Below, one piece after another: positions 15,501-49,376 of a stretch of DNA of 64,000 bases. The translations under genes and the position numbers were made by a program. Origin of the DNA: Utricularia gibba (Eukaryota > Streptophyta > Magnoliopsida > Lamiales > Lentibulariaceae); contig NEEC01000015.1 in the NCBI GenBank assembly GCA_002189035.1, forward strand, positions 1,302,001 through 1,366,000. The letters run 5' to 3'. Within the stretch, counting starts at the first letter, position 1; each line of letters opens with the position of its first letter. The notes below the pieces were generated by a model. That model did no database searches. It was not told the origin of the DNA and saw only the letters and a list, made by a program, of their open reading frames with translations.

Positions 15501-18500
15501 TCAGCGTTTCTGAAAATGTGCATTCATTTTCTCATAGGCAATGATTATCATGGCATACCATGATTTGGAGTCTCCATTACAAGTGTTTGATTCAACAATA
15601 CTTGAGGATGTTATGAGCATCTTCATCACCTCTGCCGTTCTTAGACTAATCCAAGGTAGGTCGGTGCTTCATTTTCAAAAGAAAGACGGTACATGTCAAA
15701 TAAAGTTTTTCTGTGGTTAAATTTGTTTAAATAAACATATGGAATCATCTGGATTTTGCAGTTGTTTTGGATATCGTGTTCACATGGAAATCCAGATCTT
15801 GTGCAGACCCTTTCCGCCGTCGAAAATATTTTATGAAGATTATTGTTGCTATGGTCTGGACAATTGTTCTTCCTATATGTTATTCTCATTCAAAAGGAAA
15901 ATATACGTGCTACTCTGCACAAGAAGGGGGCTGGCTTGGAGAATGGTGCTACTCATCCTACATGGTAGCTGTTGCAATTTACTTGTTTAGTAATGCTGTC
16001 AGTGTGGTCCTTTTTTTGGTTCCAGCAGCTGGAAAATACATCGAGACATCCAATACTCGTCTATGTACAATTTTATCATGGTGCGCACAGGTAAAAGTTA
16101 AGTTATAGGTTCTTCTCATCATTTAATCCCGTGAGTCAAAAGTATAGTTCTTTCTACATGCATTCTTCTCGGTGAAAAATGAGCCATGTTACTATGTTCA
16201 GTGATCTTATATCAACAAGTGACTGAGTGTTATTTTTTCTTATACCTTCCACCTTGTTTTCCTAATTCATATCAACCAATGGAATTTCGCATTTTGCAGC
16301 CTAGACTCTTTGTCGGAAGAGGAATGCAAGAGAGTCAGGTGTCAATTCTAAAGTAGTGCCAAAATCTCTATGCTGATTCATTGTTCATAGTTTTTCATAC
16401 TTTAACTTTTCATCATTAGTTTTGTTGTTAATTATTTAGGTACACATTTTTCTGGGTGCTTTTGTTGCTGAGCAAATTGTTATTTAGCTATACATTTGAG
16501 GTACATGTCATACTGCATAGAAGCAGGTTCTTGGGTCATGCTGGTCTAGAATCGTTACTAGATCCTTCGTTATATGCAGATAAAACCACTTATATCACCA
16601 ACTAGAAGGATAATGAGTATTGGAGTGAAAAGTTATGAGTGGCATGAACTTTTCCCTATGGGTAATTTCATTTGTACCTTTCTTGTAATATTCCATCTCA
16701 ATTTGCCATAAGGTATAATATTTTCATATGATCGTTCATTATTTAGTGAAGAACAACGTTGTTGCGATTGCTGCTATCTGGTCTCCTATCATCCTTGTAA
16801 GTGTGCACGATACATAGTTTGCTAGTTTTCTTTTTCTGGCACATTCATTTAACTCGGTTTTCAGGTATACTTCATGGATGTACAAATATGGTATTCTGTT
16901 TACTGCTCCATCTATGGGGGAATATATGGAATTCTTTACCATCTTGGTGAAGTATGCCAAACCTCTGTTTATTCAATCTGTTTTGTGTATGAAGCTTTTT
17001 TGTGCTTGTGTTGTAATTCGCTCTTTTTTTTCCGTTAAAAAAAAAGATTCGAACACAGAGAATGTTCTGTAGCAAATTTGATAGTCTGGCCAAGGTTTTC
17101 AACCAAACCCTCTTACCTCCCATAAACGAAGGAAATGAAGAAGGATTTAAGTTGTGGTTATGTGAACCAGGCTGTCTAAAGGTTGGTCTTTCTGTTTTAT
17201 TAAATATTTTGTTTATCAGCTCTTTGATAACGTTTAATATGGATGACTTAGGCCCTAGAGAATACTAAAGGTGGAGTTCTGAAATTTGCTATAACATGGA
17301 ACCAAATTGTAAGTAGCTTCCGGGATGAAGATCTGATAAGCAACAGGTTGATTATGTTGCTCTTCTTTTCCTTTTTCTACGAGTTCTATTTTTTTTAAAC
17401 AATTTCTTACTTTGTCATGTTCTTTGGATGCAGAGAACGTGATTTGATGAAAATACCTTTGACTTCTGAATTATTATCTAACCAAGTTTGTTGGCCTGTT
17501 TTTCTTCTGGCACATAAGGTAAATGAGAATTGAAACTCTTGTTCCAAAATGTTAGCAGTTTCACATTCTTTTCTTTTTCATTTTCAGTTACCGGCAGCTC
17601 TTGTCATCGCCAAAGTTTTTACTGGAAAATTTAATAAACTGCTGCAAACAATCAAAAAGGATACTTACATGTTTCATGTTGTCACTGAATGCTACAAGTC
17701 TCTCAAGTACATATTGGATATCCTTGTTGTGGGTGACATGGAGAGAAGGTAGAAAAAATGATAATTCATTTCAAGAACTCAACATATTACCATGGTTTCC
17801 AACTTCTCCATTTTCAGGATTGTGTATGGTATTTTCGAAGAAATTGAGGAAAGCATTTCACAATCATCACTTCTCAAGCATATACGTCTGTGTGAGATAC
17901 CAGCTTTACATGCTAAATGTGTTGACTTGCTGGAGCTACTGGTAATTATGATGCATGGAACTGTTATCCATTATTAAGAAAATATTGCTGACCTCAAAGT
18001 TATTTTTATTTAGGTAGAGGGGATGAAGGCAATCATCATAAGGTAGTAAGGATACTTCAGGATATCTTTGATGTTGTGACAAATGATATTTTCATAAAAA
18101 GACCAAGGTTGGCAGCTTCTTGTGCTCTCTCTCTGAGCTAAATACCAGCTGTATTTCATTTGTTTATTGAAGTTTTTTGTTTGATCCTGGTGCATAAGAA
18201 CACTGGATATATTCTACCCTCTTCAGCAACTGCAAGATGACGATGCAGAATTTTTTAGTCATTTTCAACCAGAACTATTTGCTTCAAAGGATTCCATCCA
18301 TTTCCCACTTCCAGATTCAGGCCCTATAAGCGATAAGGTACCGTTTATTTTATTTCTCAAGCACTTCATTTATCGTGTGAGTCACTCTCTGAAAATTGTG
18401 TGCAGATTACACGTTTCCATTTGTTGCTCACTATTCAAGACAAGGCCATGTATATACCCTCAAATCTGGAGGCTCGAAGAAGAATCTCATATTTTGTTAC

Positions 18501-46471: not shown

Positions 46472-49376
46472 ATGCAGGCGGATCACCGAAAGAAAGTGAG
46501 CTTCTTTTTCTTTCAACCGTTTCTATCTATCCCTTTTTATGGGCTTCCGTTGTTTTTGCACATCAAGATGAACTATTTGTTTCTGGGATGGATGATGATG
46601 AAGCGCCTGATGTTCTGGAAAAGAAAGATTCAGCTCATCATAATTTTATAACTGAAATTGTTGAAACCGTATAGATCTATGTTGAAAAAGCTTCTCCTTT
46701 TCTTGTATGATTCATCTTATCATGTTAGCGAGATCGAACTTATGTGAACGCTTATAGCCCTTGATTTCAGTGCTTTTATTTTGTGAGATTGGCGGCAAGT
46801 GGATCTTTGAACTGATGTATGCTCCAAGTGATTTTGTTGAAGGTGTTTCTGAAATTATCATTTCCTGCGTCAATCTGAAATGGATCGCACTTGTTTGCTG
46901 CAGAATTCAGCGGAGGCTGACTTCTTCTCAGAATACGGTGATGCAAGCAGGTATAAAATCCTTGAGGTCATTGGTAAAGGTAGCTATGGTGTTGTGTGCT
47001 CTGCTATCGACACTTATACAGGTGAAAAAGTGGCTATAAAGAAAATACATGACATCTTTGAACATATTTCTGATGCTGCACGTATTCTCCGAGAGATAAA
47101 GCTTTTGAGGCTCTTGCGACACCCTGATATCGTAGAAATTAAGCACATTATGCTTCCCCTTCAAGACGAGAATTCAAGGATATCTATGTTGTTTTTGAGC
47201 TAATGGAATCAGATCTTCATCAAGTCATCAAGGCAAATGATGATTTGACGCGGGAGCACTACCAGTTTTTTCTGTACCAGTTACTCCGTGCCCTTAAATA
47301 CATCCACACAGGTAATTGTTGGTATATCTAGAAAAGAGTTTTAATGAATGTTGAATATTTTGGTCTTTGTTGGTGATCGTATTGGCTGTAAGCCTCTCCA
47401 TGTTATACCTCCGTGTGTTTCATTGTAGCTAATGTCTATCACCGAGATTTGAAGCCCAAAAATATTCTAGCAAATGCAAACTGTAAGCTGAAAATATGTG
47501 ATTTTGGATTGGCTCGAGTTGCATTTAGTGACACTCCTACAACAATTCTGTGGACGGTTGGTATTCCATTCATGGGTTTTTTTTTTGGGTGCTGAATCAC
47601 AAGCTAAATTTTACAATCTACAGGACTACGTGGCTACAAGGTGGTACAGGGCACCTGAACTGTGTGGTTCATTTTTCTCGAAGGTATTCATCTTTATTTC
47701 TTTGGAAATCATTCATGCGACTGAATAGGTAAGTGTATTTTTGTGATAGTTGATGTTTCTGTGTACAGTATACTCCTGCAATTGACATATGGAGTATAGG
47801 GTGCATCTTTGCCGAAGTGCTGACTGGGCGGCCTCTTTTTCCTGGAAAGAATGTTGTGCACCAGCTTGATTTGATTACTGATCTTCTTGGAACACCTTCG
47901 ATGGATACCATTTCTCGAGTATGTATCAATTCCACAAAGGCTTTAATGTATTTTTCAACCTTTATGGGGCTCACCCCATTCTCTTGTTTTGCTTAATCAT
48001 AGGTGCGAAATGATAAAGCGAGAAAGTATCTCACAAGCATGCGAAAGAAGCAGCCTGTTCCTTTTTCTCAGAAATTTCCAAATGCCGATCCCTTGGCCCT
48101 TCGGCTCTTGGAAAGGCTTCTTGCTTTTGATCCCAAGGACCGTCCAACAGCTGAAGAGGTTTGCCGCAAAATGGGCTTTTCATAAAGTTTCTCACGTATA
48201 GATCCTGTGTGCAGTCTGTCATTTTCTTTCATTATAGGCATTGGCAGATCCTTACTTTAAGGGGTTGGCAAAGGTCGTGAGGGAGCCATCATGCCAGCCA
48301 ATTTCAAAGATGGAATTTGAGTTTGAGAGGCGAAGAGTAACCAAAGAGGATATTCAAGAATTGATATTCCGCGAGATACTCGAATACCACCCTCAGCTAC
48401 TGAAGGATTACATCAATGGAGTAGAGAGAACCACCTTTCTGTATCCCAGGTTATTTATTCTGTCGCTTAACGTCTTTACAAAATATTCCTTTTGCTTACT
48501 GGTGAACTCTTAAATATTATCCTTGTTCAGTGCCGTTGATCAGTTCAAAAAGCAGTTTGCTCACCTCGAAGAGAGCAAAGGGGGATCAGCCATTCCGCTT
48601 GAAAGAAAGCATGCTTCTCTTCCAAGGTACATTTCACATCTCATCTGCAACAACTTCACCTGTTATGTTGGACCAGCAATTCAATCCCATTGCGATGTTG
48701 ACAACGCAGGTCCACCATTGTGCATTCCAACACCATCCCCCAAAGGAGGCTCCAACTATTAAGGATAGGCAGAATTCTGAGGAATCAGTTAGTGGCACCA
48801 GTATATCAACGAGGGGCGTGCAGCCACTGTATCGAATACCACAAGGTAAATATCATCTTATGGAGGTTCTTGACGTTGGTTCTTACCCACCCTGAAAGCC
48901 CATAACCCATGTCCGCAGCTAAGCCAGGCAAAGTCGTTGGCCCTGTATTCCAATATGAGAATGCAAATGGCATCAAAGACGCATATGATCCAAGAAGCCA
49001 AGTCAGAAACCCAAACCTCCATTCTCATCCCATCTCCTCAGCACATTGCTACCACAGAAACACCCCAGCAAAGATCCAGAAACCCGGAGGTGAGCCACCT
49101 TCTTTGCCAGCGAACTCTAAGCAACTACCAAACTGTGGATTGGCATCCAAGTTAGTCCCAGATGTAGCCATAAACATCGAGCCGTCCCCCGGATTCTATG
49201 TGGGTCATTCCGGGGCAGGCAATGTCGACGACCGAGTGGTGGTAAACATCGAGACTAACATGCTGCAGGCGAAAGCAGCAGCTCCCTATGGTGGTATTGG
49301 CATGGGTACAGGAAATATAGCTAGCCATAGAAAGGTGACTGCTGTGCAATATGGAGGTGTTGGTGGGTTATATTAA
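46472..49376 (+). CDS. MAP kinase of the TDY class (clade D), MPK20/MPK19-like, with two frame breaks
   Basis: Ser/Thr protein kinase ending a MAPK cascade. Ten coding exons: 46472-46495, 46904-47311, 47429-47556, 47624-47683, 47769-47918, 48003-48158, 48238-48449, 48531-48626, 48710-48845, 48919-49376; about 609 residues, as in MPK20 (roughly 600). The start is MQADHRKK, then [35 protein letters not shown] is near residue 149 and the activation TDY at 187-189, split between exons 3 and 4. The long C-terminal tail ([44 protein letters not shown]) is typical of clade D. Two C runs are one base short: 47156-47159 (before [13 protein letters not shown]) and 48737-48741 (in NTIPPKEAPT). With the normal lengths all exon phases agree. 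Confidence 0.93.

Follow-up and report, generated by a model that had tools for sequence, protein, structure and literature searches.

Apparent one-base frame breaks at short G/C runs in the Utricularia gibba genome assembly are probably consensus errors

The window analysed here is a stretch of 64,000 nucleotides of the Utricularia gibba assembly (G000:C412:1302001-1366000), which comprises 100.09 Mb in 516 contigs. It carries genes for a callose synthase, two polygalacturonases (PG1 and PG2), a GPAT, a MEI2-like protein and an MPK20-like kinase. RNA families and tRNAs were searched for in the window and none were found. At 35000-35170, some 170 bases form a G+C-rich patch that differs from its surroundings and may be organelle-derived DNA. 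An earlier note on this DNA described seven frame breaks in five of the genes, with a G or C run one base too short at each break. Direct reading of the sequence gave the run lengths listed there at all seven coordinates, and in the six-frame translation 7/7 breaks are one base short, with the protein continuing in the -1 frame. Translation, profile matches and relatives show that the conserved protein continues across each of them, which bears out the one-base deficits in all five genes. The runs named by the note hold clearly at five sites and are likely at one (callose synthase, 18019); at the remaining one (GPAT, 32774) the placement is ambiguous and the run is not unique.

Exon 1 of the callose synthase gene (forward strand) ends in phase 0, with its donor at 17944. 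The second exon (18016-18107) gives GDEGNHHKVVRILQDIFDVVTNDI only if one base is added, and the frame of GDEGNHHKVV likewise requires one additional base. The break is situated three bases into the exon, and the G4 run at 18019-18022 is its likely, not its unique, position based on exon phase and paralog exons (L076/L077); the paralogs have the same exon, with an intron at the same place. In the last exon of PG1 (forward strand), the G6 run at 27813-27818 is one base short. Alignment to PG2, located at 30.0-31.6 kb of the same window, yielded a single -1 event, which falls at this run, and PG1 matches GH28 in a Pfam scan.

Both GPAT breaks are on the reverse strand. In the first exon, the C5 run at 33581-33585 (G5 on the coding strand) is one base short: the Pfam profile HAD_RAM2_N is matched from 1 to 43 in one frame and from 45 to 203 in the next, and paralogs on contigs C413 and C4 are uninterrupted across the site. 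In the second exon (32774-32789), translation shows that the frame certainly falls by one after VQGQAPGK; the paralogs L071 and L075 are open here, and the alignment is compatible with a deficit in C5 (32774), C4, G3 or A4. A search for relatives of GPAT in the PDB found none. The MEI2-like gene (reverse strand) is one base short in the G3 run at 39496-39498 (C3 on the coding strand), where the window reads LFSTSLPVL(P)HEK, with the break at LPVL(P)HEK, and the homeolog on contig C480 has LFSASLPVLYHEQ in a single frame.

The MPK20-like gene (forward strand) is also broken twice. At the C4 run at 47156-47159, within the kinase domain, the Pfam profile Pkinase is matched back to back in two frames (1-68 and 69-115). 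The homeolog on contig C244, with 88% identical DNA, is open in one frame across this site and features CTTCCACCGTCAAGG compared to CTTCCCCTTCAAG in the window, that is, the six bases CCACCG against the five bases CCCCT. Arabidopsis MPK4 (PDB) aligns over the site without a gap. In the C-terminal exon, the C5 run at 48737-48741 is one base short; translation places the frame switch at ATCCCCCAAAGG, where the homeolog is uninterrupted.

With a G/C share of 0.35-0.39 among coding runs of at least four bases, 7/7 breaks would fall in G/C runs by chance with p ~0.001, a value for which the less certain runs were taken to be G/C. The callose synthase and GPAT regions were used to look for a second assembled copy of the window, and none was found; searches with the MPK20-like and MEI2-like genes returned only the locus itself and diverged relatives.

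The same signature was found genome-wide in four conserved families (GRAS, KCS, HSP70 and glucan synthase), in which frame changes were counted between neighbouring matches spaced too closely for an intron. The sign was -1 in 30/36 such changes (two-sided p 7e-5), and one of the six other cases (L034) turned out to be two -1 events on closer alignment. By frameshift-aware protein-to-DNA alignment of the DNA of 60 GRAS and KCS loci, plus callose synthase loci, 19 -1 events at loci other than the window were placed at the DNA level, partly by eye; weak frameshift calls (L026, L028, L032, L052, L054) and intron-bearing KCS genes were left out as not placeable. G/C runs hold 18/19 of the placed events and a T run the remaining one (p ~6e-7). 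This is far from chance, since A/T runs of four or more bases outnumber G/C runs where the coding sequence of these families is intact (426 vs 276).

The assembled lengths of the affected runs are G3 (L020, L063, L064), G5 (L027), C5 (L035), C6 (L036), C3 (L059, L061), C3 and C4 (L037), and G1 and G4 (L034), as well as G5, G3, G4 and G3 in the callose synthase on contig C505, G3 in that on C328 and G5 in the HSP70 on C304. The C505 gene is highly conserved apart from its four breaks. Unrelated families on many contigs thus carry the signature. The inferred true lengths are mostly about 4-7, with one shorter, so that most affected runs are short and a long homopolymer is the wrong picture. That the runs are always shorter and always G/C, as had been claimed for the window, is nearly true genome-wide. 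The exceptions are a surplus C in L063 (KCS-like, G000:C4; CC for an expected C at ~2207 in coding orientation), besides its G3 deficit, and the T-run candidate L047, with T2 compared to T3 in its relative L045. In the run-length spectrum, the fall-off of G/C runs is only slightly faster than that of A/T runs, which is too weak to serve as an independent test.

In the window, seven breaks fall within an estimated 20 kb or so of coding sequence; in the GRAS family, about 13 were counted across some 44 genes with a domain of roughly 1.1 kb each. Overall, this amounts to about one break for every 3-4 kb of coding sequence, a rough rate because loci were picked by match score and gene counts were taken from match rows.

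One explanation of such breaks is real decay, in which pseudogenes left after whole-genome duplication carry true one-base deletions. Whole-genome duplications and gene loss are known from U. gibba (PMC8333044), and the MPK20-like and MEI2-like genes each have a homeolog. However, decay would be expected to leave mixed signs and sizes, stops and large deletions, whereas the observed changes are -1 events in G/C runs with both flanks conserved. The mixed disabling changes and relaxed conservation by which a pseudogene is recognised were not found at the seven breaks.

Two further loci argue against decay. PRP8 is the core of the spliceosome, is needed by every spliceosome, and a plant is not expected to survive without it. 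A search for its PROCN domain gave a single match in the 100 Mb assembly, on the contig that also holds the window (C412). This single-copy gene (L080, G000:C412:501600-510300) has a -1 break of the same type, in which a C4 run is one base short within an ultra-conserved exon (around 6715-6725 of the locus, about 508319 of G000:C412). At the exon-internal GCCCCAGA, SLLFAPRPFNMRSGRMRR requires one additional base, and the frame is broken at GCCCCAGACC within the exon for SLLFAPRPFNMRSGRMRRAEDIPLV. Once one base is added, PRP8 chains in the PDB match over the break without a gap. The breaks thus hit an essential single-copy gene as well as dispensable ones.

The second case is a GRAS locus that was assembled twice (L020, G000:C316:31414-32541; L021, G000:C412:853787-854914). 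Compared over 4.1 kb, the two copies show 1 substitution and 10 indels, with the missing bases always on the C316 side. Where C412 has GGGG, C316 has GGG, and the frame is broken in C316 only. The C316 copy is short at A/T runs too, as might be expected of a small contig with low coverage, and bases are also missing in its non-coding part; C316 would seem to be redundant and insufficiently polished. With indels far outnumbering substitutions, the pattern is that of consensus error, unlike natural alleles.

Two HSP70 copies (L078, G000:C241:15700-18600; L079, G000:C304:2235450-2238350) are 99.7% identical, with 8 substitutions and 1 gap, and are alleles or recent duplicates. One G-run frame break is common to both. 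In two slightly different copies this could be a real inherited mutation, as decay would have it, or a repeated systematic error. We consider it highly improbable that a small part of the deficits, such as this one, are real recent one-base deletions, with a deletion bias at G/C runs acting on top of assembly error. Decay as the general cause is less probable still, and the view that the breaks are hard to explain by it is borne out by PRP8 and by the GRAS locus of which one assembly lacks the break.

We therefore favour consensus error, as the note proposed: judged from sequence comparison, the genes that appear broken at the seven places would be intact in the plant, with the assembly consensus under-calling G/C runs (probability about 0.97). 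The long-read consensus, most likely from PacBio CLR reads and HGAP/Quiver, would drop one base from some G or C runs, and a run shortened within an exon would appear as a frameshift. The plant's own reads would then carry the longer runs. This reading follows from the -1 signature, which is almost confined to G/C runs and recurs across contigs and families, together with the break in single-copy PRP8 and the break in only one of the two assemblies of the GRAS locus. A point against it is that some of the affected runs, with true lengths of 4 and in one case 2, are small for classical homopolymer error.

The published behaviour of the technology adds to the support for homopolymer under-calling. 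HGAP polishes with Quiver. Published work on U. gibba describes an HGAP assembly of PacBio reads (88x, 581 contigs, N50 3.4 Mb; PMC5793159), and the assembly analysed here would most likely derive from PacBio CLR reads with HGAP/Quiver. A weakness of Quiver at homopolymers has been pointed out (PMC4853030). In the genome of Streptomyces albus SM254, produced with P6-C4, HGAP v3 and Quiver, 205 indels were left over, 'nearly all' of them at homopolymers of G or C (PMC4832174). As here, the indels were of one base and frameshifted genes; their density was 205 in 7.2 Mb prior to Illumina polishing, whereas in the plant assembly ~1 per 3-4 kb of coding sequence is observed, in runs down to 4. In the tal genes of Xanthomonas, too, the Quiver consensus had spurious frameshifts at a G run, most of which vanished with newer chemistry (PMC4853030); that run consisted of nine G, whereas true lengths here are mostly 4-7. 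The breaks at G/C runs are thus most probably an artefact of a known kind.

It is hardly credible that the short runs are real and that ribosomal frameshifting or insertional mRNA editing restores the frame. Runs of this sort can in principle be slippery, and protein conservation extends downstream of each break. However, the affected G or C runs vary in length, lie in unrelated genes and share no slippery motif; homeologs and paralogs of these genes do without any such mechanism; and the non-coding part of the C316/C412 pair loses bases likewise. No insertional G/C editing is known for nuclear plant mRNAs. Wrong exon models, with splice sites shifted by a base or two preserving the frame, are just as hard to credit: another acceptor could matter for the callose synthase break so close to the exon start, but no GT/AG alternative restoring the conserved frame was read from the sequence there, the paralog intron lies at the same place, and 6/7 breaks are exon-internal with matched protein on both sides.

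Gene loss and truncation are a main theme of work on the compact U. gibba genome. If the break rate holds, thousands of reference genes would carry a false frameshift, predicted proteins would be split or truncated, and counts of gene losses, truncations and pseudogenes would be inflated unless checked against reads. Not every claim of gene loss is overturned by this, as illustrated by DCL3, which was reported as truncated, with 5' RACE by the authors (PMC8333044). A profile search of the assembly yielded four Dicer-like loci, one of them without Dicer_dimer, in keeping with that publication. In the 5.5 kb upstream of the DCL3-like locus (L073, G000:C213:2756500-2762000) no helicase-like sequence was recognised: three ORFs were scanned against Pfam, with one weak PAZ match and none to helicase or Dicer-dimer, and inspection of the other ORFs by eye recognised no helicase. 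A gene for an SR-type splicing factor adjoins the DCL3-like gene. A one-base artefact as the origin of the DCL3 truncation is therefore unsupported; the truncation is unlike the product of a G/C-run error and looks structural, in agreement with the 5' RACE.
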